A stretch of 64,000 bases of DNA from Physcia stellaris (Eukaryota > Ascomycota > Lecanoromycetes > Caliciales > Physciaceae): positions 310,001-374,000 of the forward strand of contig JABSSW010000041.1 in assembly GCA_018902385.1 (NCBI GenBank), written 5' to 3'. The position numbers and the translations under genes were made by a program. The notes under the pieces were generated by a model. It did no database searches. It was not told where the DNA came from and was given only the letters and a program-made list of their open reading frames with translations. This document shows, one piece after another, positions 40,494-64,000 of the stretch. Positions within the stretch are counted from its first letter, which is position 1. The number at the start of each line of letters is the position of its first letter.

Positions 40494-41198
40494 AAGAACC
40501 TGGTCACTTGAAAGTCCAGCCGTTGAAACTTAATCCACAAGGGATAACGGCCGTGTGCTGCCATTCTATAGCAATAATGAAAACTGCTCAGTTATTGATC
40601 CCTTACCTCGCCAGTCTGGCAGCACCCCGGAATTGCACCAAACCTTTCGTTATATCTACCCCGCAGTATAAGCGAGATTATGGTGCATCTCCGGGGTGCT
40701 ACCAGACGGTGAAGGATCCAGATAGTAGAAACAACAAGAGAGTCGATATTACGATAGGGCACAATTGGGTGATAAAGATGATTAATTTACTATCTACGAC
40801 CAGAAATCAGATATGCACTTTGATGACTAATTAACGATCATATCGATCATAACATTTGCAAATTCTACATTATTTTTCTTTAGATTTTTTGATTTTTTAG
40901 TCAAATTTTTTGATTTTTCGTCATTTGTCATAGCGTTTTTATTTGTCGTCATAATTTCAATTTTTTTCAAATGATTGTTTCGATCGTAAACTTTGCACTC
41001 AATCAAAAAAAATTGAAAATCGAAAATAAAAAATATCGAGAAAACTGAACAGAATTTGAACGATTTGATATTTTGTTGTAATTTGTCATAACATTGTTTC
41101 TGTCGTCATCGTAATAAAAAATAAAAAAAAAATCGAGAAAATTGCGAAAATAATTGCTCAAAAATTGAATCGAATGTGAACGATTTGATTTTCTGCTG

Positions 41199-41456
41199 TA
41201 ATGCATTTCTTTTTTGAAAAATAAATCAAAATGAATTGAAAAAATGAATTCAATGATTTCGATCGTAATGCGTTTTTTCTGAAAAATATGTCAAAATAAA
41301 CGAGAACAAAATAAGAAAAATCGAAAATAAATCATCAAAATATGATTTTTGTCATAATGTGTTTCTTTTGAAAAATAAATCAAAATAAACGAAAAACGAA
41401 ATAAGAAAAATATAAAATAAATTATCAAAAAAAAAGTATGATTTTTGTCATAACGA
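41199..41456 (+). repeat. Imperfect tandem repeat
   Basis: A block beginning TAATGYRTTTC recurs at about 41199, 41266, 41355 and 41451, followed by GAAAAATA.ATCAAAATAAACGA-like sequence. Spacing is irregular (67, 89 and 96 bp). The copies at 41266 and 41355 are the most alike. Confidence 0.55.
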
Positions 41457-41989
41457 ACGATCAAGATTAATTTTTCAAAACGATGTCAAAATTTTGAATT
41501 TTCGATTTTGAAAATAAGAAATCGTGATTTTCGACTCGTACAATAATTTTTTTGTTTTTGTTCTTTTTCGATTTCGTTGTTTTTTTCTTTTTTGTTAATT
41601 TCAAGAACTTTTTTGTGTTCATTTCTAAATCATTTAAATACGTTTTGAAAATGTTATTTTTCGTTTTCAACGAACGATTTTGTCGTTTTAATTTTTCAAC
41701 GCGAATACGAAAAATTTTTGTTGTTTTCAATCATAATGCGAATTGTTTTTTATTGACAATTTCGTTAACGATTTGTTTTCGAATCAATTTCACAATTTTG
41801 TTTTCAATCGTTAATCGAATTTTTTTCATTTTGAACATGAATTTGTCGATTTTGCATGTAATAAATTGATAAATCAAATTGACACGCGTTTTTTCGTTAA
41901 TTTTTTTGTTTTCAAATGTTTTTACGATTTTTCGAAAGTTTTTCGTAAAAAATTTTTTGTTTTGTTTCAATTGTTTCATTCGTTTCTTT

Positions 41990-42204
41990 TGTGAAATGCT
42001 ATGCAGAAATATAAATTAATTACATAATTACACGAGAATATCGAAATGAAAAACAAATACATGAAAATCTGTATAGACATATGTAGAAAATTTGATTTTT
42101 CGAATGCGTCAAAACGAATTTCGATTCTAACATTCGATGTGATAAAATAACGATGTTAAATCGATATTAATTTTTCAAATGTTGAATTCGATACACGTTC
42201 GTCA
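41990..42204 (-). repeat. 3' LTR of the gypsy element
   Basis: 215 bp, starts TGTGAAATGC and ends GTTCGTCA on the plus strand. Nearly identical to 49234-49448; the differences are mainly C/T or G/A transitions. Confidence 0.9.
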
Positions 42205-42429
42205 CATTATTTTTCGTTTTTTTTCAATTTCGTTTCGAAACGATTAATTGATTTTTGTTTTCGTCATCGATGAACGTTTTGCGCGATATGTATGTGTTGT
42301 TGAATGACGTTGAATGATTGATCGTCGAAACAAAAAAAAAAACGCGAAACGTCGCGAAATGAATTTCGTCAACGAAATTGATTCGTCAAAATGAAAACAT
42401 TCATGTGATTACATTTTGAAATGAACAAT

Positions 42430-42890
42430 TTGAACATGTTAATGAAATCGTGATAACGATGTTTAACGCAATGATATTTTCGTGTATGCGAACGTCGATG
42501 TGTACATTGTATGCGACAAAATGTGAATGTAATGAATGTTTTGAAAAATGATCAATTCATATAATTCGTCAAAAGCAATTTCGACGAACATTAATAAACA
42601 AACAATTAAAAATTCGATTTCGCGTATTAACAAATTTAAAAATTCTTGCAATATCAAATTGATATCACGAGACGAATAGTTTGAACAAATCGATAAAATT
42701 TTTATCATCATTGTTAACGCGTTGATGTTATCGCATATACGATGTTTGATTCGTATATTGCATTCAGTGAAATATGCATGTATTAAATTTTTTGAAAAAC
42801 AAATATTTTGAACGAATTTTACAAATAGTTTCGCGTGTCATTAATAAACAATTGAAAATTTTGTTGACGAATTTGTAAATATTCGAATTT
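42430..42890. repeat. Direct duplication inside the gypsy 3' region
   Basis: The segment around 42455-42610 is similar to the one around 42710-42860: TTAACGC..TGAT, a TGCATT/TACATT block, TTTTGAAAAA and TTAATAAACAA recur in the same order. This is a diverged duplication in the non-coding part before the 3' LTR. Confidence 0.45.
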
Positions 42891-43581
42891 TCTGACAATT
42901 TGCGTTTATTTATTTCATTGCATGACATTTTACATTATCATTTATTGTTCAATAAGATTTGACGACAATTTTTGAAAATGTTTTTGATACGATTCAACTT
43001 TTCATGCGACGTAAATTCTGATTGTAAACAACGCGAAATGATAACGAAACGAATAACAAAAAAAAAAATTATTGAAATCAATTTGAAAATGAATTGTAAC
43101 GAATTCGTTAACAATTTTCTGATCGATCATAGACAGTAAAATTCATGATTTAATCATTTCGCAAAACAAACTTTGCTGTTTCTGAATTAATTTCGTGAAA
43201 AACATTCACGATATTTTGAACATTTTGAAATTCGTCGTCGTCGACGTAATATCATGTTCGATCGTGAAATTTTCATTCGAATCAATTGCAACGATACTGT
43301 AATCGATGATAATGATATCGAAATTTTAATATATTATCGAATTTTCATTTCGACATTTCATTTGCAATAATTGATTTTGAAAAATCGTTATGTTGTTTTT
43401 TCAACGAATTTTTAAAGTTTTTTCTCAACAATCAAAAATGAAAAATTGAATGAATATGCATGTCGTCGAACAATTTCAATTCATAAACGAGATTTTTTTT
43501 CTTGATCATTTTGTATGAATTCAATTTTTTGTCATCGAATTTGTTTGATAAACGAATCGTTTTTATATGACGACGATTTAA

Positions 43582-44729
43582 TCAAAAATAATTTTTTATT
43601 TCAAAATTTATAAACAAACGAAATTTATTGATTCGAACAATCATTTTCTGTTTCGCGTCGACAACATTGATTTTGACGTATTCGATGATACGATTCATTT
43701 TTTCGACAATGAATTCGCTTTGTTTAATCAACAAACGTTTTTTAATGATTTCGTAATCATTTAAATTCGATTCAAAAATCATTCGAAAATGATAATTCTT
43801 ATTAATGAAAAAAAAAAAAATTTCGTGATCGTTGAAACATCGTTATTGTCAACGAATTTCATGATATTTATTCAATCAACTTAATCGTTTTGACGATAAT
43901 TGCAATACAAACGTAATCGAGTTTCGATATTTTGATTCGTTCGTTCGATTTGATCATCGATTTTTGATTGAAAAACGATGAATAATTTACATTTGATTTT
44001 TAGTCGTTTACAAAAAGTTTTTCAGACACGATTTACGAATTGATCATCTCGATTTGAAATGATGAAAAAAAATAATTCATGAATACGAAATACGTAATGT
44101 ATTAATATTTTGATACAAATTTGTATTGTTAAGTCATCGTCATCGATCACGCAAAAAACGTAATGACGTTTTTTGATTAAACGATCGATAATAATACATA
44201 TAACATTGTTGTTTTTGAAATCAAATAATTCGATTATGAAATTTATCGATATATCAATTCATCGTTGACTAAAAATCGACAATAAAATTAACAGTTCGTG
44301 ACGATTATCGTGTGAAAATTTCGATCGTTGACATTTGTGACAATTTCGAATATAACGTTTAATGAATTTCTCAATACGATTCATGTTCGAATGTGCACAG
44401 AAAAATTGATCGTGAACGTCACGAATTATTTCAATCATGAAATTCAATCGATTTGACATTCATAAATTTTCGTTTTTGAAAAAAATTTCGTTTCGATCGA
44501 AACAATTTTGCAAATTCATTTTTTCGTTGATGATTTGTTTATCGATCAAAATTTGACGATAATTTGTGCAATTTTCATTTTTTCGATTGATTTGCATGAC
44601 GCGTTCGTATAAATCGTTTTGAACGTCAATTGAACATAATTGCAATCGAAAAAATGACAACAAAATTTGTTTTTTATAGAATTTACGTTCGTCGTTTTCG
44701 ACGAAACGAAATTCAAACATTTTAATCAA
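43582..44729 (-). pseudogene. Decayed integrase of the gypsy element
   Basis: The zinc-binding HHCC region is clear: IIRDVHDQFFCAHSNMNRIE followed by KRYIRNCHKCQRSK (His/His/Cys/Cys spacing preserved). The 43582-43782 frame (EYVKINVVDAKQKMIVRINK) fits the C-terminal part of gypsy integrases. The catalytic core between them is broken. Confidence 0.8.
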
Positions 44730-44799
44730 TGCATTTGTTTTGACGTTTTTGATTTCGAATTGATATTGAATTTTGATATTGTAATCGATTAAAATTTTT

Positions 44800-46259
44800 G
44801 TTTAACGCATTTGACGAAAAATGAATTTTTTATTCGTTATAAAAATTTCGAGATTTTTGTGATCGATATAAATTTCAACGAATTCGTCGATATTTTCGAA
44901 TTCGAATTTTCAATGTTTCAAACATCGAATAATGACAAAAAATTTTTTGTCATATATTTCGTAATTGCATTCGATCGAAATCATTTTTTTGTTAAAAAAA
45001 ATCATCGAATGAAAAATTTCGTCGTCGTCGTATTGAAATAAAATTTCATTCAAACATCAATTTGAAAAATCGATTTTTAAAATAATTTTACGATTGCGAT
45101 CGTAATGTCGAAAAATTGAAATTTCGATTATTTGTTTTTTCAAAATTTCGAATGTTTCGTTAACGAAATCGATTCATTCGAAATCAATTTTTTTTTTGAT
45201 CATTCGAATTAAAAATTTGACGAATTTCGAAAACGTTTTAATGAAACGTCGATAGAAATTGCAAAAATTTACAAACGTTTGCATTTTTTTGATGCATGTC
45301 GAGCGAATTCAATTGACGATGTTTTGTATTTTTTTAAAATTCATGCGTAATTTTTTTGTCGATAATATGATTTTTAAAAATGAAATTTCTGTTTGAAAAA
45401 ATTCGCATTTTTTGATATTCATTTGAAAATCAACTTTTTTCAATTTTTGAAATATTTGAATGAAATGTCGTTCATGTTGTTTTCGAATTTTGTTGTAAAT
45501 AAAAATATCATTCAAATACATTTGACAGAAATGATTAATATATTCAAACAACAAATCGTTCATATAATGTTGTCAATTAATCGAATCATTGATAAAATCG
45601 AAAAACAATACATGATATTTGTAAATATTTAACGAACATATAAAAATAATAAAATTTTCGCTTTGTGAATTCATTCGAAATTTGTTGAAAACAAATATGA
45701 TATTCAATTTGAACAAAAATTTACAATCGATAATTTTTGCGAGAATTTTCTCGATCAACGAAATAAAATAATTATTACGTTTAATTATAACGTTCAATTT
45801 TCGATAATCGACACACAAACGAAATTATTCGTTCGATTTGACGACGAATAAAATGAACGAAACATAAAATGTCTTGTTAAAACTAATAAATTTTTTTTGA
45901 AAATTATCGTGTAAATATTTTTGAAAAACTTCGAATTTTTTAGATGATAATGAATAGATTCGACTTCGAAATAATTGATTCGAATTCTCGATCAATTCGA
46001 TTTTGTGATCGTAAAATTTATGAAAAAATAACTTGTTTGTTTTTTTCGAATTGAATACACTTTCGAAACGCTTAAAAAATTCAAAAATTTTACGTTTTAA
46101 TTTTTCGACGATTGTTTTCATGATTTTAAAAACGTTTTTGAAATTTAAATTTGAATCAATTTTTATTTTGATCAATTTTTTTTTGACGTTGTCAATAATT
46201 TCGTTTAATTTTTTCATGATCAACGAGAAAATTTTTTTTTTTTTTTTAAATTTTGTCAA
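44800..46259 (-). pseudogene. Decayed reverse transcriptase and RNase H of the gypsy element
   Basis: Recognisable motifs in order: DHKIELIE and the SLSSKKFEVFQKYLHDNFQK thumb/finger start; CVDYRKLN; the catalytic box as YLNDIFIYN (family YxDD-type, first Asp changed to Asn by G-to-A); KKCEFFQTEI. RNase H follows (KIDFSN, then a stop where Trp is expected, then NEILFQYDDDEIFHSMI). The region is split into several frames and is non-functional. Confidence 0.85.
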
Positions 46260-46850
46260 AGATTGAAACGTCGTTGCGTCAATGAAAATTACGTTTAACG
46301 ATATGTTTAAATCAAAATCTTAATCGTCATTTTGAATTTTCGAAATTGTAATTTTAAATCGTCGACTAGATCGACGCGTAAATTTTTTGAAAATGTCAAA
46401 TTTTTTTATTGAAACGATGATTAAATTCGATTTTTGAATTTCGCGTATGATTTTTATTCGTCGTTTTTTTTTGAAAAATTTGATTGAAAAATATTTTTTG
46501 TTTATTTTTTCAATGACGTATTTGAAATTTGAATTCAAAAATTTTTTTATTGATTGTTCGTTTTTTTTCGAATCTTTTATCGTGAAACGAAAAAAATTAC
46601 TCGAAAAAATGTCGAAATTGATCGTTTTTGAAAAATTTGATATTTTTGCAAATTTGTTGATAAAAACGACGTTAAAAATCGTTCAAAAAAACAAATAAAA
46701 CGTTTTATTCGATTGCTTGTTCGAATTGAATAATTTCTGAAATATAAACGAACGAAATAACAAAAAAAAAATTTTCACGTGATCACAATGATTTGAAATG
46801 AAATAACATTCGTCGTTGATCATATTGAAAATCATTTCATGTTTGTTCAT

Positions 46851-47351
46851 TCAAGATTTTTTTAAAATCAACGAATGCTGTTTTATTTTGATGATAAACA
46901 ACGAAACAAAAAATTTCGAATGATTTTGTAAAATCATTTTGAGCAATATTTGATGAATAATGAATTTGATTTCAATTTTTTCGAAATTAAAAATTTTTTT
47001 AAATCGAATCAAAAATATTGAAATCAAATTTAATTTATGACATATTTTTTGCGCAATTTTTTCATTAATGAAAACGTATTCAAAAATATCGATATCAATT
47101 AAATCATGAATCATGATTTTTCGATCGTTCGAAAACAATTTTATTTTTTTAATTAAAAATTCACAATGAAATTCGTTAAAAATGTTATGTTGAAAATTTC
47201 GTGAACAAATTCTGATAATTTTTTTCGCGTTTTCGAGAAAAGTTGTTAATTTTTCGACTCGTCGAAAGAAAAAGAAAACGCAATGAATGTATTGTTTGCA
47301 TAATCGAAAATTGTTGCAATATTTTGAAAATTGAATATTTTTTTTAATCAA
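46851..47351 (-). pseudogene. Decayed aspartic protease region of the gypsy element
   Basis: The frame contains HDLIDIDIFEYVFINEKIAQ, corresponding to the family ALIDTGAT-type active-site region followed by an A..IC..L segment. The motif is degraded. Its position between gag and RT fits. Confidence 0.6.
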
Positions 47352-47407
47352 ATCGTTTATTCATTCAAATAATAATTTATTCGATTTGCAATTTTTTTAT
47401 CAATGTT

Positions 47408-48703
47408 TTAAATTATCGCAACGACGACATTTCTTTTTACAAAAAAACGAATTATGACAATTTTGTAAATTTTTTTCTCGATTGAATTGATGTAATTGAT
47501 AATCAATTTCGCAAAATATTTTTCGTTTCGACGAATTCGAAATGTTTGTTTGTGATTCGAAAATTTGAAAAAATTCGAAAAAAATTGAATTTTATCGTCG
47601 TCATTTTGAATACGTCGATGACGATTATCAATTGTTTGAATTTTTCGATAAAAAACATCAAACGAAATGAAATTATTCAAATTATTCATAATCAATTTGA
47701 ATTTAACGATAAATTTTTTTCAAATCATGAATTTTGTCGTTTTCAAATTTGTTGAACAATTGATTAATCAATAATAAAAATTTTGAATAAAATTCGCTGT
47801 ATACATTCGAAAATTTCATTTTGAAATCGTCATATTGACGTCGAATATTGCGATCATGATTTGCATCAACGTAAATGATATCGAACAATTTGAAAATTTT
47901 TTCGTAATCGAAAAAAAAATGACGTTGAATTTTACGTCGAATATAAACGTGTTCGACAATTTTGTTTTTTAATCATTGAACGATTGCAATGATTTTTTGT
48001 TGTTCAATAAAATATCAATTTGCATTGATTTTCAATTTATTTACGTATTTATTTTTTCAAATATTATATCGAATGTAATCGAAAACGTTTGAATTTTTGT
48101 GTTCATAAAAAATAAAAAAATCGATGTATTTAAAAATCAATTTTTTGCTTTTCGAACGAATTTTGAAAAAATCAATTTTTTCATCATAATTGATTTTTGA
48201 AAAAACATCGATAATTTGATCATTCGAAAATTTTTTTTTAATTTTTTTTTTACGTTTGATTTTTCGATTAATATGAACGATGAATTGTTTGTTGATTTTC
48301 ATACGAAATTTACGAATTTCAATTCGATTGATTTCGAATTGTTCGTTAATTTCATCGAATTTCAAAAAATGTTTTAAATTTTTCGTTTTTATGTATTTTT
48401 CGCGATTGTTTCAAACACGAATGATATTGATGTTTTTGTTTCTATTTTTTCGAAAAATTTCAAAATTTTTCAAAGTCGTACAGATTGTTCAAAAGTCGTT
48501 TTTTTTAATTTCGAAAGACTGAATATATCAATTGATGTCAAAATTATAATGAAATTCGAATTTGTAAAATCGAACATTGTTGTGATCATATAAATATCGA
48601 GAAAACGTTCGAAATCATCGATTTTCTTGTTAAAATCAAAAATGTTCAATTTTTTTATTTCGTTGAATCGTTGACGTTCTTTTAAACGAATCGAAAATGT
48701 CAT
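47408..48703 (-). pseudogene. Decayed gag of the gypsy element
   Basis: Minus frames between the 5' LTR and the protease are lysine-rich with capsid-like helices (KIDDFERFLDIYMITTMFDF; KFENDKIHDLKKIYR). They are broken into three or more frames, so assignment rests on position and composition. Confidence 0.6.
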
Positions 48704-49233
48704 GATGATGAGAAATAATAAATAATTTAAACAAGAAAAAAATCAAAATCGAAATATCAAAAATTTAAATAATTGATTGAATCAAAAATCGTTCGAATGA
48801 TAAAAATCGTGATTATCATTAAAAATGAAATTTCTAATTGATTTCTTGATGTTTTTTTGTAAAAATGTCATTTTTTCGAAATGATTTGATATGTGTTTAA
48901 TGATGTAATCGAATCATTTTTGAAACAAAAAAATTTTGTCAAATAATAGTGAAACGAATCTGAATCGACGTTCGAGAAAATTATTTTCGTGACATCGATT
49001 ATCGTTGAAATTCGTTTATCAAAATATTCAATTGAATCGACAAACGAATTTATTATGTTTTGCTTTTTCGCATTGACAATCAATCTGTTACGTTTTGTTG
49101 TTTTCTTTGAATGATCAAACGATACGAATCTATTATGTTTCATTATCAGTTTTTGAATTTTGAAACAAAAAATTTTGTTTATTTGAATGTTCGCGTATCA
49201 TAAACGAACATGAAAAAAATAATTTCGATATAA

Positions 49234-49448
49234 TGTGAAATGTTATGCAAAGATATGAATTAATTACATAATTACACGAGAATATCGAAATGAAAAACAA
49301 ATACATGAAAATTTGTATAAACATATGTAGAAAATTTGATTTTTCGAATGCGTCAAAACGAATTTCGACTTTAACATTCGATGTGATAAAATAACGATGT
49401 TAAATCGATGTTAATTTTTCAAATGTTAAATTCGATACACGCTCGTTA
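49234..49448 (-). repeat. 5' LTR of the gypsy element
   Basis: 215 bp, same length as 41990-42204; starts TGTGAAATGT and ends GCTCGTTA (CA end mutated to TA). Confidence 0.9.
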
Positions 49449-52165
49449 TATTTTTTTGATTTCAGTTTTTGTTCGAAACAAATTTGATTCACGAATTTTA
49501 TTTTTGAAAAACGCAAAATTTGATTGTTCAAAAATTTTTAAACGTTTATTCGATTATATAAATTCGTCGTTGTTTTTTTTGAATATCAAATGATAATATT
49601 TTTCGAACAAAACATCTTTAAAATTTCAAACGTATGAAATTATGATTTATCGTTTTTTAATCGTTAATGATTGATCGTTGTTTAATTTCAATAATTTTTT
49701 TTCGTTAAATTTATTTTTCATAAAAACGTTTTTCGTGACATGTTCATATTTTTGTTTTTGTTTTGTTGTCGTTTTTCGTTTTTTTTTTTTGTTTTTTTCG
49801 ATTTAACGATTTTTGTTGTCGATTTTTTTAACATTCATCGTTTGTTCTTGAAAATTTTGAAAATTTTTTTTTGTATATCGAAAAAATCTTTTCGTGTTTT
49901 TTGCAATTTTTTTCGTGTTTTTTGCAATTTTTTTCGTGTTCATTGTTTGTTATTTTGTTGTTTTTTGTTATTTTTTTTTATCTTTATTTTTTTTCTTTGC
50001 AATTTGTTTTTGCTTTTTCGTATTTTTATTTTTTTTTCACAATTTTTTTTGTTTTTTTGTATTCATTGTTTGCATAAATGATTTTTGCACATTGATTGAA
50101 AATATAAATTGTGATAAAATGAATAAAAAAAAATGTGCGAATTTCTCGTCGTAATGTGTTTTTCAATCGAATAATGAAATTGAACTGAATGAAAAAATGA
50201 TTTCGAAAATGAAAAATTTGATAATTCGTTCATGATATTTTTGTCGATCGAAAAATTTTGTAATTTTGTGAAATTGAAATGTTTTTGAAATTAAAATTTG
50301 AATTGAATGAAACAAACGATTTTATAAAATGAAATTTAATTTGAAATATTTTGAATCGAAAAACGTATCGTCGAAAATTTGAATTGCGTAATGATAATAA
50401 AAATATTAAAAAATTGAATACGACGAAAATCATCATGTCGTCGCGAAATTAATTCGCGAAATTGTTATCGTTTCGCGTGCATTTCGTTTCGTTTCGATAT
50501 GTCATTTTGTTATGAATGATTATTTTTGTCATTTGTGTTTTCAAATTTGAACAATCTGAAATCGATTGTTTTATTTCAAATTTTCAAATTTTACATTTTT
50601 CAAAATGAAAATTTAACGTCATCGTGTTTTGAACGAAATGAGAAAATTCACTATTTTATTTTTTTCGAATTTTTTTCGAAATTTTTTTTGTCGAATCAAA
50701 AGTCGAAAAACAATGCATCGTAAATATCAATGAATAATAATTTTTGTGAAATTTTTCAATAATGTCGATAATGATAGAATTTTTTTATAATAAAATATTT
50801 TGTAAATTCGTTTGACGCGAATGATCGATCGAAAAAAATTTTGATTAATTTCGCGTTCGTATTGTTTAAAATCGATAATTTTTTTCAATTGAAAATTCAA
50901 ATTTTCAATCGAAACATATGTCAAAATCATTTTAAAACGTTTCAACAACGTGCAATTACTTTACATTTTGCACATCAATCAACAATTTCATATAATTTTT
51001 ATTTGTTTAATTCAAATTGTAAAACAAAACGAGCGCATTTTAACGTTGCAAAAATGATAAAAATCGATTCATTGTCGCAATAGTTTTGTGATTTCGAAAA
51101 TTTCATGTTTGTCAAATTTGTGTCAAATCGTCAATTGAAATGTTTGCGAAAAAATTTCGCTCAACTTTTCGTGATTTGTACAATTGTTTCGCAATTTGCA
51201 CATCAATCATCAAACACATATGATTTTCATTTATATAATCAAGATTGTAAAACAGAATGAATGCATTTCAACGTTTCAAAAATTATCGAAATCGATTCAT
51301 TATCGCAATAATTTCGAAAATTCGAAAATCACGTCGTTGTCAAATTTGTGTTTTTTGAAATGTGTTGCGTTCGATTTTCGACAATGTTTGCAACGTTTTA
51401 ATGCGATTTCGATTATAATTCAATGCGCATTCGATCGATTTTCGATATTATTGATTATTTGAATAAAATTCATTTCGTGTTTCAAAACGAATTTTCGTTT
51501 GTATGTTTTATTTATTGAATGCAAATGCTGTTAAGATGCGAAATCGTTGAAATCGCAAAATAATTGCGAAATATCGATTTTCGCAATCTTATTAAATTTA
51601 AATTTAATTTTGAAGTTTTGCACGAATTTTTTTTGAAAAAATTCACGAACAAATTTGTCGTTTGTTATAAATGATAATTCGTTTCGCACAATTGTGAAAT
51701 TTCATTATTTGATTTATTCATTGAAATTTATAATTTGAATACAATTTTTTGAATTTTGTGATTCATATTCTGTTTGAAAATAATGTTAATTGAAATTTCT
51801 TAAATGTTATTTTACGACAAACGTTTTTAAATTGAAAAATTTCGTTAAATTTCGAATTTGCGTAAGAATATTCAGAAAATTTTTAAATTTTGAAATTAAA
51901 TGAATGTTAAAAAAAATGTTCGTTCGTTAAAATGTTATCGTCGATTATTTTCGAACACATTTTCAATGATTGTAAAATGAATAATGTAAATTATTGTTGC
52001 GTCAACGTTTTTTAATATTTTTTTAAAACATTATGCGATTTCAATCTCGTTCGATTTTCGATTATTGATTGATTAATTGTTGAAAATTCACGATTTTTTT
52101 CATGTTACGTCATCAATTTCATTTCATTTCGTTTTCATAATTGTCAATTGAAATATTAAATGATA
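49449..52165. other. AT-rich spacer with diverged repeats
   Basis: No element domains are recognised. It holds a 22-bp tandem unit (TTTTTTCGTGTTTTTTGCAA-like, about three copies) at 49889-49945. It also holds a diverged direct duplication of about 165 bp (50951-51115 and 51181-51350) sharing CACATCAATCA, AAATTGTAAAAC-like and ATCGATTCATT.TCGCAATA blocks. Probably older, unclassifiable repeat debris. Confidence 0.6.
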
Positions 52166-52170
52166 CATTT

Positions 52171-52366
52171 TGTTGAAAAATACAATTTTCGCAAAAAGAT
52201 AATCAAGAAATCAATTGATATAATCTGACAAAAAAAAAACTAATGCGTTTTTGTTGAGATTAATGTTTTGACATTCGCACATTTTTTGTGTTTTCACTTC
52301 ATGTATGTTATTAGAATAACGAAATTCAAAACAATAGAATGATAATCATTCATAATTCTTTCAATA
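52171..52366 (+). repeat. 5' LTR of element A
   Basis: 196 bp, TGTTGAAAAA...TTCAATA. Aligns throughout with the unmutated LTR at 62122-62319; most differences are C-to-T before a pyrimidine or G-to-A after a purine. Confidence 0.92.
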
Positions 52367-52710
52367 AATTATGAAAATCGAATTAACAATTTTCGTTACA
52401 TTTAATATCAATTACAACAACATGTCGAAACACACGAAACAATAATATCTAATCGCAAACAATACAGAAATGTACACACGCAATAATTAACTCAATGAAA
52501 TATTCAATTTTGTTAAATTCGAATTGATTCAATTGCATTGACAACATTCAATATCTTAATACGCAATACATTCAGTACATTTTCAATTATTTCAGCAATA
52601 ACATTTATTTATCGAATTTTTTACGAATTTTTCGCGAATTCGTCTATTTATCGAATTTTTTTACGAATATTTTACGATATCGAATCTTTTCGCGAATTCT
52701 ACACTCAATC

Positions 52711-53912
52711 AGAATGACGACATCTATTTTTACTTTTTCGAAATTTGATTTTTTTTCTCGATCATTTCTTTTTTGCATTTGCATTTTAATCAATGACATA
52801 TTCGCGAATAAGTCAATAACGCAAAATTTTCGATGTTTGTACGAACAACATTAACAGAATCAAATCAATCAAAAATGCGTTTGATTCGTTCAAGCAAAAA
52901 AAACACAAAAAAATTATCTGATGCGAAAACATGAGTCGAAAATCAAAAACAAACTCAAACAGAAAACGAAAAAGTTGATGAAACAACAAGAAAAAATTCG
53001 TTTAATCAAAAAACGAACGAAAAAATATACGTGCAAACGTTGCAAAACGATCAAATTCGATAACAATATCAAATTTCACGAATGTATTCGTATTCGTCAT
53101 GCAAAGAAATCGAAATTTGTTTAGCAATTTGTTGTTTCATTTGCTTTCGAATCGAAATTTTTTATTTTTTTTGTTTCGTCATTTTTTTCGTCATTTCGAT
53201 CGATAATTTTCTCATCGTTCACGTCATCGAAATTTTTATTTTTCGCGATTTTTACATCAGAAATTGTACGCGAACGTTTAGAAAACGTATCATTTATTTT
53301 TACAAAACATTTTTTCTTGTCGATTGCAACATCAAAAAAATCGATATTTTGAACAAAAATAATTTCACGATTTGTTGCGTCGAAACTTTTTCGTTTTTCG
53401 ATTGCGACATTTATATCGATGTGCAAATTTTCGAAAAATATAAACGTTGTTTGTTCGTTTGTTTCGTTTCGAACATTTACATTATCGAAATTGTATTTCA
53501 TTGTGAACGATCTGTATCACATGTTCGTTGAAAAATCGAATTTATTTGATTTGCAACGACATCAAATGCGTTCGTTTTTTTCGAAAATTTATAACAAATG
53601 CAATTTCAAAAACAATTGTGATTTCATACAAACGCGCATTACGTTATATTTTCATGCAACGATTTTATTTGTTTTCAAAACGATCAAATTCGAAATATTT
53701 TTAACAATGCATGCATCGATCAAACAGTCGATTCGCATATCATTTTCGCGAATTTTTCGATTTTTTTTTTCTTCGATACGTTTTCATTTTTCGACATTTT
53801 CGCGTTCATTTTTTGTTTGCAAACATTGTCAAAAACGTTTCGTCATTTATTGATTTATCGATTGAGTTATGCGAATTGTTTCAAGAATTGAAAACAATAA
53901 AATATTCATGAA
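52711..53912 (+). pseudogene. Hypermutated zinc-finger Gag-like gene, copy A
   Basis: Collinear with the intact ORF at 62615-63916. The finger is still readable as YTCKRCKTIKFDNNIKFHEC followed by IRIRHAKKSK, and DLYHMFVEKSNLF.LQRHQMR, ITLYFHA and CKHCQKR blocks recur downstream. It is split among frames and carries many G-to-A and C-to-T changes. Confidence 0.88.
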
Positions 53913-54419
53913 ACAACGTTATTGAAATTTCGTTTTTTTTCGTTTTATTTTGAAAAAATATTGATTTTTTTATTTCGAGAAAATCATTATTTTGAAAAAA
54001 TTAACATGTTATTTGTTTGTTTGTTTTATTCGTTCGTTTTTTCTATCAATCGTTAATCGATTTGAAAAAAACTAAAAATTGTTGTTGTTGTTTTAATGAA
54101 TTCGATGTTTCGCTTTTTCGCGCATTTCGACTTGAAAAAACTTTGCAAATTGTTGTATGTTTTGTTTATTTGTTTTATTGTTTAACGAATATGATAAGAA
54201 TTTATTTTTGTTGTGATTTCGTCTTGATTTAACACGACTAATTATCGTTTTTTTTTTATTATTTTTGAAACTTAGTCGTTCGATAAATACGAAAAGAAAA
54301 AAAATGAATACAGTCGTCGTATTTGACGTATTGTACGAACAATTGTTAAAAAAGAAAAAGCAATTTATTAGACAATACAATTTCGAAAAAATATATTGAT
54401 CAAAATGTTCACGTTCAAA

Positions 54420-54535
54420 TAATATCGTTTCGAGAAAACGTATTTTATGAAATCATTATATATTCGTTGAAATCACATAATATCGTTTCGAAAAAACGTA
54501 TTATGCAATCATTACATATTCGACTTTGCAAAACA
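54420..54535 (+). repeat. Tandem motif in element A
   Basis: Two units of about 58-60 bp, each with AATATCGTTTCGA.AAAACGTATT and AATCATTA.ATATTCG. The same motif occurs two to three times in element B at 57838-58000. Confidence 0.7.
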
Positions 54536-54573
54536 GAAACTCGATCGAAAAGAACAAATAATGTTGAAAATAT

Positions 54574-55070
54574 TTGATTTTTTCACATATTAATCGATTT
54601 GATTTTTTGACAGATTTTAATCAAATCAGAAAAATTCGAATTTGCATTCTTTGCATCGATACATTTTTTTTCTTATCGATTTTTCGATCATTTTCAGTTT
54701 TCGACATTGCATCGACATATTTAATGAATTTTTTACAATCAAATCGCATAAATATTCGATCATTGATGTCGCAAAAAATATTTGAAAATTTTGAAACACA
54801 ATGATATTATCAAATCATGATGTGATTTGCATTTTCGTTTATCATCGCAATATTCAAACAATTGATATTTGTTTCATGATATATTTTTTAGTCAATTCTA
54901 AATATCAAATTTCACATCGATATCGCATTTCAAAAAGAATTATAATCAAAACGTCGCAATTTTTCAACTCGATCGCACGTTTTACAAATCGATTTTACGT
55001 CATATTTCAAGTCATTACGTGTATCGAATTTCGATTCGTTCGTTTTTGCAATTTTCGCATCGATGTATGA
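54574..55070 (+). other. Second conserved segment of the short LTR element, copy A
   Basis: The frame starting MIFSHINRFDFLTDFNQIRK and the next frame with NIQTIDICFMIYFLVNSKYQ match element B (57178-57773) at protein level (MIFSHTNRFDFLTNFNQIRK; KIQTIDICFMMYRLFNFRYQ). No polymerase or integrase motif is present. It may be a decayed second ORF or conserved untranslated sequence. Confidence 0.55.
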
Positions 55071-55282
55071 TTTAATTCGTCAAAATTTACGTTATCGAAA
55101 AAGTATGTTCGAAAGTTTCAAACAACACATCGTTGAAAAAGTTCGTTCTGAAAAAATTTACATGAAAATTCTAAAATGCGCATCGTTGAAAAAATTATAT
55201 CGTTGAAAAAGTTTGCACGAAAATTTCAAACTGAATTCGTTAAAATATTGAACAGAAAACACAAACGAATGTTGTGAAAAAG

Positions 55283-55478
55283 TGTTGAAAAATACAATTT
55301 TCGTAAAAAAATAATCAAGAAATCAATTGATATAATTTGACGAAAAAAAAATTAATGCGTTTTTGTTGAAATTAGTGTCTTGACATTTGCATATTTTTTG
55401 TGTTTTTATTTCATATATGTTATTAGAATAACGAAATTCAAAACAATAAAATGATAATCATTCATGATTTTTTCAATA
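55283..55478 (+). repeat. 3' LTR of element A
   Basis: 196 bp, identical in length to the 5' LTR and followed directly by the CATTT duplication. Confidence 0.92.
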
Positions 55479-56838
55479 CATTTCATCATTTTTTGTCGAT
55501 TTTTTTCGTTTTTTTCTTTTTATCGAAATTTTGATCGTTCGTTTGCAATTTTGTTTTTTTAATTTTGATTTTGTTTCGATGTCATTGTTTCACGTTTTGT
55601 CGAATCTGATTGTTTATTTTTGTTATCGATTTTCAGTTTTGATTTGAATTTTCGTGATTTTTTTTTTTCAATTCATAATTTAACATCGTTTATCGAATAT
55701 CGTTTTTTGATTTTTTCGATATACATTTTTTTTAATCAGAAATTTTTTTCGTGTTGCGTCAATTTGTGAACAATATACGAATTTTTTCATTTTGTTTTCA
55801 ATTTGTACGAATGTTGTTTTTTTTGCGTTAAACGTTTGAATTTTATCAAACATTTCGTCGTAATTGAATTTTTTGACGTTTTTTTGTTTTTTTTTTCAAT
55901 CAACATTTTTTTTTAATTAAATCGCTTTTTCACGATTATATCGCGTAATTCATTCAATTTACATAATCGTTGTTCAAACGCAAACTTTTCAATAATTAAT
56001 TTTTTTTCAATATTTGAAAAAAAAATTTTTTTTAAAATAGCATTTTCTATCATTTTTACTCGCAATGAATTTTCGTAAAAAATATTTTCGATAAAATATT
56101 TAAATTGATAATCGAATAATATTTTCGTTGAAAAAAATTCGTATATACGAATTAATTTGATGTTGATTGCATTCACAACGTTAAATAATAACAAATTTCA
56201 TTCGAAAATTATTTTTGAATGATGTTGTAAAATTGCGCGAAAACAATTCAAAATAAAACGATTGTATCGTTCGAAAAATTTTACAAATTAAAAATGCGAA
56301 ATCGAAACAAAAATTTGTCGTATTTTACGATGTGATAAATATTTTGAAAATAATTTCTTAATATGCGTTTTATTATCGTGATATACAATTTTTGAACATT
56401 CAAATACGTTTATCATTTTTTTTTTCAAAAAACATAACAGAATTTTCAGAAATTGCGTTTGATATTGCGTCAACGAACAAAAATCGACACATGTAATCGA
56501 CGTCAATTTGTATAAATTTCGTTTCGTTTTTGATTATAAAATTGATCGATTTCAAATAATTTGTTTCAACAAAATCGAATAACTAAATGAAAACAATAAA
56601 TAAAAATTTTTCAATCGATTTGAACGAATTTAACATTTGACAATTCGAATATGAACGACAAAATTCAAAAATATTTTTAAATTTAATCGATCAATAGTAT
56701 TTTTCGACTGTTTTGATTTGCGTGATTTTTTTCGAAAAATATTCACAAACGTTATGTAATAAAATCAAAATCTGAATCATTTTTTCGACATGAAAACAAC
56801 GATTATAACGTTCGAATCTTTCAAAATACGTCAATTTT
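55479..56838. other. AT-rich remnant between elements A and B
   Basis: Contains a minus ORF at 55913-56194 (LLFNVVNAINIKLIRIYEFF) of retroelement-like composition, but no diagnostic motif. Unclassified repeat debris. Confidence 0.5.
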
Positions 56839-57045
56839 TATTGAAAAAATCATGAATGATTATCATTTTATTGTTTTGAATTTCGTTATTTTTGTAACAT
56901 ACATGAAGTGAAAACACAAAAAATGTGCGAATGTCAAAATATTAATTTTAACAAAAACGCATTAATTCTGTTTTCGTTAAATTATATTAATTGAATTTTG
57001 ATTGCAACATTCGCGAAACACATTTGCGAAAATTGTATTTCAACA
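56839..57045 (-). repeat. 3' LTR of element B
   Basis: 207 bp, reads TATTGAAAAAATC...TTTCAACA on the plus strand; same family as the other LTRs. Confidence 0.92.
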
Positions 57046-57177
57046 TTTTTTTACAACAATCGTTTGTGTTTTCTGTTTTGTATTTTAACGAATTCAGTTT
57101 GAAATTTTCGTACAAACTTTTTCAACGATGAATTTTAAAATTTTTTCAAAACGAACTTTTTCAACGATGCGATTTCT

Positions 57178-57773
57178 TCAGCGATACGTTGTTTGAAATT
57201 TTCGAACAAGTTTTTTCAACGTGACAAATTCTGAAGTCAAATTATGCATCGATGCGAAAATTGCAAAAACGAACGAATCGAAATTCGATAATTTATTGAT
57301 TTCAAATATAACGTAAAATCGAATTGTAAAACGTGCGATCGAACATCTGAAAAATTGCGACGTTTTGAATATGCATTTTGATGAAATAAAACATCGATAT
57401 GAAATTTGATATCTAAAATTGAATAAACGATACATCATGAAACAAATATCAATTGTTTGAATTTTGCGATATTGAACGAGAATGCAAATCACATCATGAT
57501 TTAATAATATCATTGTAAATTTCAAAATTTTCAAATATTGTTTGCGACATCAATGATTCGATATCTAAACAATTTGATTGTAAAAAGTTCATTAAATATG
57601 TCAATGATATAAATCAGACGAAAAATGATCAAAAAATCAATAAAAAAAATAATGCATCGAATGCGAGCAAACTTTTGCGAACATACATCGAAACAAAAAA
57701 TGCAAATTCGAATTTTTCTGATTTGATTAAAATTTGTCAGAAAATCAAATCGATTAGTATGCGAAAAAATCAA
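57178..57773 (-). other. Second conserved segment of the short LTR element, copy B
   Basis: Protein-level counterpart of 54574-55070 in copy A, on the minus strand and in the same position relative to gag and the 3' LTR. Contains FDFLTNFNQIRKIRICIFCF and DVCSQKFARIRCI. Function unknown. Confidence 0.55.
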
Positions 57774-57837
57774 ATATTTTCAATTTTTGATCGAGTTTTT
57801 GTTTTTTTTGATCGAGTTTCTGCTTTGCAAAATCGAA

Positions 57838-58000
57838 TACGTAATGATTGCATAATACGTTTTCTCGAAACGATATTATGTGATTTCATCGAATATGTGT
57901 ACAATACGTTTTTTCGAAACGATATTATTTGATTCGTTTTTTTTTTAATAATTGTTCGTACAGTACGTCAATACGTTTTTTCGAAACTGTATTGACAAAT
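57838..58000 (-). repeat. Tandem motif in element B
   Basis: Two clear units and one diverged unit containing AATACGTTTT.TCGAAACGATATTAT, matching the tandem motif of copy A in reverse orientation. The conserved core is TTCGAAACGATATT. Confidence 0.65.
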
Positions 58001-58396
58001 TGTATTTTTTTTTTTTTCGTATTTATCGAACGATTAAGTTTCAAAAATAATAGAAAAAAGAAACGATTAATTAGTCGTGTTAAATCAAAACGAACAACAA
58101 AAATAAATTCTTATCAATTCGTAAAACAATAAACAAATAAACAAAACATACAACAATTTTTAATTTTTTCAAATCGAAATAGAGCGAAAAAGACAAAACA
58201 TCGAATTCATTAAAACAACAACAATTTTTATGTTTTTTCAAATCTGATCGATCAACGATTAATAAAATAAAATAAACGAACAAAACAACAAACAAACAAC
58301 ATGCTAATTTTTTCAAAGTAATGACTTTTTCGAAATAGAAAAATCAATACTTTCTCAAAGCAGAACGAAGAAAAACGAAACGTCAATAACGCGTTT

Positions 58397-59680
58397 TCAT
58401 GAATATTTCATTGTTTTCAATTTTTGAAACATTTGACGTGATTCAATCGATAAATCAATAAATGACGAAACGTTTTTGACAATGTTTGCAAACAAAAAAC
58501 GAACGAGAAATTTTTGAAAATCGAAAAAAAAACGAAATAAATGAAATCGATCGTGAAAAGATCGAAAATTGACGCGAAACGTTTTCGCGAACATGTGTTA
58601 ATTCAAATATTTCGAATTTGATTGATTTGAAAACAAATGTAATTATTGCATGAAAATATAACGTAATGCGATTTTGTATAAAATTATATTTGTTTGCGAA
58701 ATTGCATTTGCGATTGCATTTGTCAAAATCGCGCGAAAAAAACGAACGCATTTGATGTCGTTGCAAATCAAATAAATTCGACTTTTCAACGAACATGCGA
58801 AACAAATCGTTCACGATAAAATAAAATTTCGATGTAAAAATTCGAAACGAAATAAACGAACAAACAATGTTTGCATTTTTCGAGAATTTGCACATCGATT
58901 TGAATATCGCAATCGAAAAACGAAAAAATTTCGATGCGACAATTGATCGTGAAACGATTTTTGCTCAAAATATCGACTTTTTTGATATTGCAATCGACAA
59001 GAATTTTGATAATACGTTCTTTGAACGCTCGCGTACAATTTCTGATATAAACATCGAGAAAAATAAAATTTTCGATGTGAAAAATGAGAAAATTATCGAT
59101 CGAAATGACGAAAAAAATGACGAAACAGAAAAAATAAATGATTTCGATTCGAAAACAAATGAAACAACAAATTGCTAAACAAATTTCGATTTTTTCGCAT
59201 GTCGAATGCGAATATATTCGTGAAATTTGATATTGTTGTCAAATTTAATCGAATGTTTGCAACGTTTGCACGTATATTTTTTTGTTCGTTGTTTGATCAA
59301 ACGAGTTTTTTTTTTGTTTTGTCAATTGTTTCATTTTCTTTTTGAGTTTGTTTTTGATTTTCAATTCATGCTTTCGTAAATGATAATTTTTTTGTGTTTT
59401 TTTGATTTGAATGAATCAATTATATCGCAAAATTTTAATATTTTCAATCAAATGTATGTTATAAAACGTTTTAAAATTTTGCGTCATGAAATGATTTTCA
59501 AATACGTAATCGCAAAAAACAAACGAAAAAGATAAAAAATCAAATATCGAAAAAATAAAAATAAATGCGAAGACGAATTTGATCGCAAAAATAAAAATAA
59601 TCATTTTGATTGAATAATAAATAGATTTCGCGTAGAAATTCGAATAGATATACGCGAATTCGTAAAAAATTCGCAAAAAG
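58397..59680 (-). pseudogene. Hypermutated zinc-finger Gag-like gene, copy B
   Basis: Minus-strand homologue of 62615-63916. DNA around the finger (59190-59290) aligns base by base with the intact copy, and DLFRMFVEKSNLFDLQRHQM, ITLYFHAI and CKHCQKR blocks remain. Frames are broken by the same class of transitions as copy A. Confidence 0.88.
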
Positions 59681-59973
59681 TTCGTAAATAGACGAATTTC
59701 TGAAAAATTCGTAAAAGTAAATAAATGTTATCGACGTAATTGAAAACGTATTGAATAATATTGATCGTATATCAAAATATTGTATGTTGTCAATGCAATT
59801 GAATCGATTTCGAATTTGACAAAATTGAATATTTCACGATGAAATTGATTATTGTTGCGAATATTGCAAATTTGTTGTATTGTTTAACGATTAATTGTTA
59901 TTGCGTTTCGTTTTTTGACATGCTGTAATTGATATTAAATATAACGAAAATTGTTAATTCGATTTTCATAATT

Positions 59974-60180
59974 TATTGAAAAAATCATGAATGATTATCA
60001 TTTTATTGTTTTGAATTTCGTTATTTTTGTAACATACATGAAGTGAAAACACAAAAAGTGTGCGAATGTCAAAACACTAATTTCAACAAAAACGTATTAA
60101 TTTTGTTTTCGTCAAATTATATTAATTGAATTTTGATTGCAACATTCGCGAAACACATTTGCGAAAATTATATTTCAACA
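59974..60180 (-). repeat. 5' LTR of element B
   Basis: 207 bp, equal in length to 56839-57045 and nearly identical to it; followed directly by ATTTT. Confidence 0.92.
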
Positions 60181-62121
60181 ATTTTCGCGAATTTTTGTTT
60201 TCAATTAACAGAAATTTTCTAAATTTTTTTTCGACATTTTATGAACGATTTCAAGCAAAAAACTATCAATTTTAATAATATTTCGAATTTTGTATTTTAC
60301 GATATTCGCATATCAAAAATCGTTTAATCATTTTTGTCAAATCATTTTTCAATCATTTTTCGAAATCGAAAATGTATTATTTTGAAATTGTTTATCATTT
60401 GTCGTAATTGAATTTTTTGCTATTTTCGACAATTTGTTCGTTAAAAAAATAGAAAAATTATTTCATAAAAACTGTTCGTCATTTGTCGTAATTGAATTTT
60501 CTGTGACAAAAAAAATCGTCATCGTAAATTCGAAATTGAAAAACGATAAAAATGATTAATTTATGATTTTCGACAAATTTTCTGTTATGATTAGTTTTTT
60601 TTTTTAAAATATGTATGATATTCAGATTAAATTTCGATAACGTTAATTGTCAACGAATTATTTTATTTGTTGTATTTTCGTTTTCAAACATTTCGTTAAT
60701 GTTAAATGATTCGTGTACAATTTGATCGAATATTAAAAATTTTGTATTAATCATTTGATTTTTGTTAAACATTTCACGATTATTAATGTTTTTTTTTTCA
60801 ATAATTTGATATTTGATTTGTGAAAAATTGTATTAATAATTTAAAAACATCATTATTTGTATGTCGTTCAGAAATTTTTTACGATAAACGATTTCAAACA
60901 AATGATTATCAAATTGAAATAAAATTTCGTTTGTTTTAATTTTAAAAACGTCGATAACAAAATGTCATTAACGTGTATCGTTTTCGTTTGAACATATGAT
61001 TTTCATAATTGTTTTTTTAATTTTTTGAAACATTCGTTCATGATTGAAAATTCACAAATTTTTTTTTTGTTTAACATTTTGTTTTTTGTTATGTTTCAAA
61101 ATGATAATTTTTTTTTTTATTATAATCGTACGAAAAAAAATCGATCGACGCGTTCAAAAATGTATTTTTTAAAAAAAAATAACATGTACAGAAAACGTTT
61201 CAATTTTTTTTTACAAATAAACGAAAATTATTTTCTAAATATTTTTATTTTGTTTTCATTGAATTTAATGTTTTTAAAATTTCGTTTATGTTTTAATAAT
61301 TGTATTTTGAACGTGAAAAATTCGCATTTTTTGAAATTCAAAATAAATTTTGTTCATATTAATTTTGAAAAATAATGAATATGTAAAAAATTAATCAATG
61401 TTTGTAAAATGTCGAATTTTTTTACGTCGTTATCAATAAAATGATTGAAAATTGAATATTCAAAATTCACATTCGATAAAACAAATTTTAAATTCGATTT
61501 TGATATATTGTTTGTAACAATATTTTTTAATTGAAAATATGTTTCAGATTTTTTTGTTGTATTTTGTTTCATTTTAAAATAACAATAAAATTCAATGATT
61601 GTATTGATGTCAAATTTGTACGTATAAAAAAAATAAACAAAAATCGTTTAAAAATTATTCGTCGCGTTCGTTTTAAATAAATATTTAACGAAAAATTGTG
61701 TTAAATTTTTAAAAATTAATTCGATTTTACGCATTGATTGATTCGTTTTGATAATGATTTCGTTTAAATTACAAAAAACATGTATCATTTTCAATTTTTC
61801 ATTTGATTTTCGAAAAAATCGTGTTTTTCAAAATAAAAAAAAATTGCATTTCACGATGATTTCAACTTTTTTTAACAATAAAAAATTTTTTTTTGTCATT
61901 TCATTTTTTTTGTTGTGTAAAAAACAAATTTTATTATTCGCGAAATAATATGTTGATACGTTGAAATTTTGTGTTCAATTAAATTCGTAAAAAACATGTT
62001 TTTAATATTCGTAACAAAAACGTTTTTTCAAATTTTTAATAAACAATGTATTTCATGTTTTTTTTGATTCGTAACGATCAAATTTTTTATCAAATTTGAA
62101 AAAATTTTCAATCATAAATTG
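60181..62121. other. AT-rich remnant without recognisable domains
   Basis: Only Phe/Lys/Asn-rich short ORFs, such as 61025-61375 plus. It is interrupted at 62122 by the young element. The five bases before that insertion are AATTG, the presumed target-site duplication, whose partner lies beyond the window. Confidence 0.55.
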
Positions 62122-62319
62122 TGTTGGAAATACAGTCTCCGCGGGTGTGCTGCAGTCAGGATCCAGTTGGTATAACCTGACGAAAGAAGGACTAGTGCTT
62201 CCTTGTTGGGATTAGCGCCTTGGCACCCGCACACTTCTTGTGCTCGCACTCCATGTATGTTACAAGAATAACGAGATTCAAAACAATAGAATGGTAGTCA
62301 CCCATGATTCTTTCAATAG
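62122..62319 (+). repeat. 5' LTR of element C
   Basis: 198 bp starting TGTTGGAAAT and ending TTCTTTCAATA; boundaries come from comparison with both LTRs of copy A and their target-site duplication. Confidence 0.9.
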
Positions 62320-62335
62320 GTTATGAGAACCGGAT
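62320..62335 (+). other. Probable primer-binding site of element C
   Basis: GGTTATGAGAACCGGA starts directly after the LTR, where a tRNA primer anneals in LTR retroelements. It resembles the GGTTATCAGAGCC-like sites of fungal LTR elements. The tRNA was not identified. Confidence 0.5.
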
Positions 62336-62614
62336 TAGCAGCTTTCGCTATACCATCAGGACCAGCTACAGCATGAGCGCACGTAGTACCTAGCCGTCGG
62401 GCAGTACAGCAATCGGTTTGCAGTACTCCAGCAGTAACCAACTCCATTGGGAGTATCCAGTCTTGTCAGACCAGAAATCGACCTAGTTGCATTGGCAGCA
62501 CTCAGTACTATCCAGTACACCCTCAGTTACATCGGTAACAGTACCTACCTTACGAATTCGCCATCTACCTACCTTACGATGTCGAAATATCTCGAATCCT
62601 ATCACTCAGTCAGA

Positions 62615-63916: not shown

Positions 63917-64000
63917 CCTCCTCGGGGTCATTACTTTGGGGGAGTTAGCATGTTGTTTGTTTGTTTTGCCCGCCCACCCCACCCTATTAACCGTTGATCG

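Follow-up and report, generated by a model that had tools for sequence, protein, structure and literature searches.

The window, as we call the whole stretch of 64,000 nucleotides analyzed here, covers positions 310001-374000 of contig JABSSW010000041.1 (G000:C41:310001-374000) in the genome assembly of Physcia stellaris, a lichen-forming fungus (Lecanoromycetes, Caliciales, Physciaceae; 44.0 Mb, 147 contigs), which was sequenced from an ascospore culture by Nanopore and Illumina (PMC7513301). Between positions 40801 and 62121 the window holds a nest of long terminal repeat (LTR) retrotransposons in which neither CC nor GG occurs. The initial annotation, made from the letters of the window, had taken this block for hypermutation resembling repeat-induced point mutation (RIP) but with a reversed context, in which cytosines before C or T are destroyed and those before A or G are spared. 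The features of the block and its right flank are as follows.

40801..62121, no strand: mutated block of nested LTR retrotransposons, free of CC and GG (dinucleotide counts and sharp left edge)
41990..42213, no strand: family A LTR, first of the pair (repeat D2, 94% to 49234-49457)
45375..45839 (C41:355375-355839), minus strand: family A mutated reverse transcriptase (RVT_1) remnant with 1 TGA and 1 TAA inside
49234..49457, no strand: family A LTR, second of the pair (repeat D2)
52171..55482, plus strand: family B mutated copy 1, with LTRs at 52171-52370 and 55283-55482
56837..60185, minus strand: family B mutated copy 2, inverted, with LTRs at 56837-57050 and 59972-60185
62122..64000, plus strand: family B young copy, nearly unmutated, extending past the window to about C41:375385

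The family A element probably lies on the minus strand, since its reverse transcriptase match is on that strand.

Results

A block of retrotransposons without CC or GG

The gap without CC or GG, which spans 40800 to 62126, is the sole such gap longer than 150 bp in the window. Its left edge is sharp, falling within about 100 bp, and on the right the block ends where the young family B element begins, at 62122; the extent originally annotated was right except that the block begins about 40 bp before 40841. The young copy is flanked by an apparent target-site duplication (ATAAATTG) in mutated DNA, and mutated DNA resumes beyond it at C41:375501-378500. Because mutated DNA lies on both sides, the young copy must have inserted into already mutated sequence.

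GC content is about 24% in the block and about 50% in positions 1-40800. Base composition predicts 282 CC and 338 GG dinucleotides in the block, and there are none. CT and AG are reduced to about one-fifth of expectation (190 versus 985 and 187 versus 960, respectively), CA and TG exceed it (1117 versus 878 and 1351 versus 1077), and CG stands at 3.7 times the expected number (1147 versus 309), the opposite of the CpG loss that decay by 5-methylcytosine (5mC) deamination would leave. Heterochromatin that is free of CC and yet rich in CpG is an observation of its own, which may matter for CpG methylation in this region.

The initial annotation had counted the cytosine contexts of 44401-44700 by hand (CpG 22, CpA 18, CpC 0, CpT 0, TpG 20, ApG 1, GpG 0) and derived a TpA/ApT of 0.26 and a (CpA+TpG)/(ApC+GpT) of 1.46; both counts and indices proved exact. 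It had further predicted that the classical RIP indices would miss the block, and they do. With thresholds of 0.89 for TpA/ApT and 1.03 for (CpA+TpG)/(ApC+GpT) (PMC2621366), the values for the entire block, 0.46 and 1.39, both fall on the non-RIP side, and 0 of the 42 500-bp windows of the block pass both. A CpC index, (CpC+GpG)/(TpC+GpA), was already defined in RIPCAL (PMC2621366); its value is 0.000 for the block and 0.860 for positions 1-40000.

The mutated DNA that we identified, in the window and at the genome loci examined, consists of element copies. The host genes of the window and six random 10-kb regions, which are samples and not a whole-genome census, are unaffected by mutation of cytosines before a pyrimidine (CpY), and none of the six regions has a 500-bp window below 35% GC. 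In the sequence examined, the mutation appears restricted to transposon DNA. Arithmetic from GC content (43.3% for the genome (PMC7513301), about 50% and about 24% for the two classes), as opposed to a count, suggests that the mutated kind would make up about one-quarter of the genome. A whole-word search of the text of the genome paper (PMC7513301) gave 0 occurrences each of RIP, transposable and AT-rich.

The base after the cytosine decides its fate

Aligning less mutated with mutated copies site by site in three element families (family B and two Copia families) gave the rule directly. The family B reference was the young copy at 62122, taken unedited; alignments of fewer than 100 columns were excluded, and cytosines replaced by A or G were counted separately, outside the fractions. 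C-to-T changes per site were:

Family B, block copies: CpC 595/657, CpT 569/721, CpA 120/765, CpG 100/666
Copia L053 to L058: CpC 430/453, CpT 321/409, CpA 26/469, CpG 23/419
Copia L054 to L060: CpC 226/241, CpT 214/356, CpA 6/448, CpG 0/344
Copia L054 to L062: CpC 228/238, CpT 288/350, CpA 25/446, CpG 7/343

Across the three families, the mutated fraction is 91-96% for CpC, 60-82% for CpT, 1-16% for CpA and 0-15% for CpG. The site-by-site rule of the initial annotation therefore holds in all three, with the refinements that CpC outranks CpT and that, in saturated copies, the occasional hits fall somewhat more often on CpA than on CpG. Counting the changes at CpA sites in saturated copies and in the LTR pairs of the block, the target order is CpC > CpT >> CpA > CpG, with slow or secondary hits at CpA. 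The survival of CpA does not stem from CpA-rich ancestors: each comparison holds several hundred ancestral CpA sites, of which 1-6% are mutated in the Copia pairs, where CpC reaches 94-96%, and 16% in the old copies of the block, where CpC reaches 91%.

In the reverse direction, the Copia pairs give fractions of 0-0.05 except for CpT at 0.07 and 0.13 in the L054 pairs, because L054 is itself lightly hit. The 5' base has little effect, as seen in family B (ACC 0.237, CCC 0.210, GCC 0.206, TCC 0.217). At 29 other family B loci, which include several pieces of the same copies and are thus not 29 independent copies, the CpC fraction ranges from 0.04 to 0.75, with CpA at most 0.07 and CpG at most 0.11; at the 7 loci where CpC is at least 0.19, CpC comes first and CpT next.

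The comparison of L054 with L060 bears on tempo. Over 3127 columns there are 440 CpY transitions versus 20 transitions in other contexts, 1 transversion and 1 gap event. Both strands are hit, since the 440 divide into 288 CY-to-TY and 152 RG-to-RA changes, versus 21 other changes. So lopsided a ratio indicates a burst and not age. L054 itself (G000:C20, around 571398-572132) is a Copia copy at an early stage, with about 80 CC plus GG per kb and 4 TGA stops; apart from CpY sites it is nearly identical to the fully hit L060.

Evidence independent of an assumed ancestor

The two LTRs of one element are identical at insertion, so any differences between them arose afterwards. In the young family B pair, 14 of 199 aligned bases differ, and all 14 are C/T with a pyrimidine following, or G/A with a purine preceding. 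One of these, at the final aligned base, possibly falls outside the LTR; if it is left out, 13 of 13 are CpC or CpT. Together with the paired alignments, this LTR pair bears out the RIP-like hypermutation with reversed context that had been proposed for the block.

A second consequence concerns stop codons. When GpG becomes GpA and TpG is spared, Trp codons turn into TGA and not TAG. Stops inside the reverse transcriptase matches of the genome, among those listed, number 651 TGA, 134 TAA and 6 TAG, counts that may include introns read through. The tally covers 287 matches listed, 137 to RVT_2 and 150 to RVT_1, with 150 of 165 and 150 of 527 candidates scored.

The signature in other sequence data

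Pro, Gly and Trp cannot be encoded where CC and GG are both missing; in L053, the Copia frame with the fewest mutations, they account for 14.5 residues per 100. Fragments of the family A reverse transcriptase in its mutated form were compared with 5.8 billion proteins, giving 509 matches; the figures below are from the 120 listed, whose identity to the query is 38 to 85%. No Pro, Gly or Trp occurs in the 10,688 residues of 57 of these 120 matches, which retain 206 His, 318 Gln and 471 Arg, and the three residues make up less than 2% in 100 of the 120. Reverse transcriptase remnants of this composition occur in metagenome proteins, and the signature does not appear to be confined to the P. stellaris assembly. 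Loss of Pro, Gly and Trp alone would be compatible with other heavy C-to-T regimes; the Gln and Arg that were kept argue for spared CpA and CpG.

Some matches (P0289, P0354) lack Gly and yet retain Trp, and must follow another rule. The remnants P0289, P0316 and P0354 and their relatives, from JGI, NCBI and ENA sources, have few or no Gly and Pro but keep Trp, and in some of them Arg has apparently turned to Trp or Cys. Judged from these protein remnants, perhaps yet another C-to-T context exists in other fungi.

Candidate methyltransferases

The initial annotation had advised a search for methyltransferases of the RID and DIM-2 types, and the genome has them. A profile search placed PF00145 (C5 methylase) at three loci. 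At C3:340323-341498 the domain lies within an open frame of 1118 codons, to which Pfam adds only DUF7893 and which we take, by its resemblance, to be DIM-2-like. The canonical RID, the homologue expected of a RIP-capable genome, is at C5:498855-499792 (P0121 of P. stellaris, an annotated gene model). The third locus, C6:790900-792562, is a second RID-type gene, here called RID2, which is intact, with three exons and 513 aa from the first Met. RID2 carries a C5 methylase domain with PCQ, EET, QNRRR and IGNAVPP motifs, so that in the domain and in PCQ, ExT, QxRRR and IGNAVPP it is like RID/Masc1 (Dnmt1 class I). It differs from RID/Masc1 in being short (513 aa), in the loop after PCQ, in the stretch before REFACLQ and in forming a clade of its own.

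The relatives of RID2 were placed with a tree of 53 rows, namely 52 database rows picked by hand, N. crassa RID and Masc1 not among them, and the RID2 of this genome; it supersedes an earlier tree in which a strict motif cut had excluded 39 rows. The RID2 clade has 16 rows (support 100/99) and the canonical lichen RID clade 25 rows (96/98); their join is weakly supported (30/81). Among the close relatives of RID2 is P0008 of Heterodermia aff. obscurata, another member of the Physciaceae, and the same species has a canonical RID (P0127). Beside canonical RID there is a third lichen RID-type group of 8 rows (99/97), formed by P0054 (Haloplaca), P0061 (Lecanora helva) and relatives, so that there may be three types of RID in lichens.

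From what is established for this fold, both the loop after PCQ and the stretch before REFACLQ would be regions where C5-methyltransferases contact DNA. After PCQ, Heterodermia RID2 reads SFSPAQVVKPEDFEDKQAV and Physcia RID reads FFSDAHTVMGKDDDMNTAS; before REFACLQ, Heterodermia RID2 reads IATGGGLDNYHPDGKRPFT and Physcia RID reads ITTQGGG-LIHPSGQRDLT. Physcia RID retains the letters of other lichen RIDs, such as that of Usnea, in both loop and recognition stretch, whereas RID2 differs there. By its presence and divergence only, RID2 is a candidate and the leading suspect.

Discussion

An intriguing question is what changed the cytosines of this block. We consider it likely, with a probability of roughly 0.75, that a RIP-like genome defence with an inverted target rule acted on a nest of LTR retrotransposons, and that the enzyme is a RID-family C5-methyltransferase, most likely RID2 or an altered RID. 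Cytosines before a pyrimidine, CpC first and CpT second, would be turned into T on both strands, and CpA and CpG would be left nearly untouched. The methyltransferase would act as RID does in Neurospora, the choice of the 3' base would have changed, most likely in RID2 (or in an altered RID), and the target would be duplicated DNA, probably during the sexual cycle.

Several points weigh against this reading. Repeat dependence, timing and the enzyme are steps of the explanation that we infer, and the preference for CpA that is the usual hallmark of RIP is absent, CpA being mutated at 1-16% of sites versus 91-96% for CpC. In saturated copies (L001 versus L002-L008), 10-22% of CpA and 2-10% of CpG sites are changed between copies, which means that either a weak second activity or a relaxed specificity exists. 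The LTR pairs within the block are mixed as well, with CpT-type differences at 8/14, 9/17 and 3/9 and CpA-type differences at 5/14, 5/17 and 5/9. Clustering of changes on the same strand, a sign of single-strand action, appears in 4 of 6 copies and is reversed in 2 of 6. At 22 of the 29 family B loci, CpC stands at 0.04-0.16, close to the background seen at CpG (0.04-0.11), so that many copies have escaped so far. Finally, the pairs that involve the lightly hit L054 begin from partly depleted sequence.

A more specific proposal is that RID2 drives a second mutator with a code of its own, C before a pyrimidine, which was born by duplication of the RIP methyltransferase and works beside or in place of RIP, clade-wide in lichens, where CpA-based indices miss it. 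We hold this only tentatively, as somewhat short of an even bet. One alternative is that the canonical Physcia RID drifted to CpY and that RID2 is irrelevant. RID is present with an annotated gene model (P0121), and a link between RID-class enzymes and signatures at CpA and CpT has been reported (PMC4352252). Such a drift seems unlikely, given that Physcia RID keeps the loop and recognition letters of lichen RIDs such as that of Usnea, unlike RID2.

Alternatively, the DIM-2-like enzyme might methylate CpY in heterochromatin, with the 5mC decaying over time. The gene is present and the heavily mutated DNA is rich in transposons, but we regard slow decay as improbable. Between L054 and L060 there are 440 CpY changes versus 21 others (1 transversion), and the two LTRs of a single young element have diverged exclusively at CpY sites. 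Unless the decay of methylated sites is extremely rapid, age would not produce so strong an imbalance. In Neurospora, methylation by DIM-2 is not known to be limited to CpY.

An assembly artefact, in which Nanopore miscalls methylated CpC and CpT as T and short reads fail to map for polishing, has to be weighed because the assembly is Nanopore-based: it was made by Canu from R9.4.1 reads, followed by Racon and then Pilon with MiSeq reads (PMC7513301). It is very improbable. Asymmetric sites would be read correctly from the opposite strand, so that miscalling of every CpC would be hard to reach, and other data contain related fragments in which Pro, Gly and Trp are absent (57 of the 120 matches listed; for 50 of the 57, the sources include ENA). 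The least probable source is an APOBEC/AID-type deaminase acting on element cDNA, which would explain why retrotransposons show C-to-T changes only; such enzymes read the 5' base, whereas in these elements the target depends on the 3' base and not on the 5' base, and both strands are hit (288 and 152 changes in L060). PF08210 had no match, but a control was equally silent, so that search is no evidence. The deaminase domain PF00383 has 8 matches in the genome. The best of these (G000:C64:178666-179121, minus strand) contains 4 TGA in 456 bp, which may belong to introns; alternatively, the locus may be a duplicated host gene that the same process has struck.

A RIP-like defence with an inverted rule can be set beside the systems already described. 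With RIP in Neurospora crassa and other Pezizomycotina the block shares C:G to T:A changes on both strands, transposons as targets, a sharply bounded AT-rich composition, and genes of the RID and DIM-2 types; it differs in the order CpC > CpT >> CpA > CpG and in a TpA/ApT that falls rather than rises. The order is CpA > CpT > CpG > CpC in N. crassa, and in T. reesei CpA and CpG are about equal and CpT exceeds CpC, so that CpC is last in both (PMC5496416). The CpT-type RIP of Botrytis, Sclerotinia and Magnaporthe has the pyrimidine after the target C and a RID/Masc1-class gene in common with Physcia; there, however, the signatures include CpA, and the text available does not report CpC, whereas in Physcia CpC leads and CpA is spared (PMC4352252). 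The same study, Amselem et al. 2015, describes CpA, CpT and CpG signatures and ties CpA and CpT to RID-class genes, and the available part of its text does not mention CpC (PMC4352252). In RIP-capable controls of another study, CpT to TpT is the dominant change (PMC7882544). The initial annotation had called the process unlike the described systems; within the literature searched this holds for the primacy of CpC and the near-sparing of CpA and is overstated otherwise, since the process, where tested, is RIP-like apart from its context and CpT is a known secondary context of RIP (PMC4352252).

Hypermutation of C to T that is not led by CpA is also found in the basidiomycetes Microbotryum and Rhizoctonia solani AG8 (CpG/TpCpG), a group in which RID/Masc1 was not found (PMC4352252, as far as its text is available). 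In Table 2 of the AG8 paper the closest spacing of changes is that of CpC (214 bp, versus 370 for CpG, 422 for CpA and 491 for CpT), yet the authors, in the text available, describe CpG-biased heterozygous SNPs that affect genes and repeats alike, and no CC-free DNA (PMC4014442). This table, which its authors do not stress, is the nearest hint of a CpC bias. In the available texts, CpA is reported for 70 families in Mycosphaerella (PMC4522978), CpA for Monilinia, with a mention of CpC-to-TpT double changes (PMC8959702), and CpA and CpT for Anisogramma, which has two rid genes (PMC10998396). In the lichen Cladonia rangiformis, GC content indicates strong RIP, and RID and DIM-2 homologues are present; CpA, CpC and CpT are absent from the text available (PMC12542154). 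A survey of 1,239 genomes concludes for CpA, and in its available text CpC and CpT do not appear (PMC12543289). We found no description of a CpC-led RIP signature in the literature searched, which took in few subscription papers. Within that literature, the primacy of CpC and the near-sparing of CpA are new; the CpC-led mutation is real and strong, and where tested it is RIP-like in all but the CpA context.

CpA preference has been held to be the hallmark of RIP, and transposons saturated at CpC with CpA spared break that rule; as those of Physcia show, the target base of a mutator can evolve. RID and RID2 form a natural pair of paralogues that bears on how RID selects its site. Genomes scored as free of RIP by the classical indices may need to be rescored with the CpC index of RIPCAL (PMC2621366). 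As to the young family B element at the right edge of the block, it has a 492-codon open frame (62438-63913, plus strand), which is without a Pfam match and includes a C2H2-like CxxC...HxxxxH stretch.

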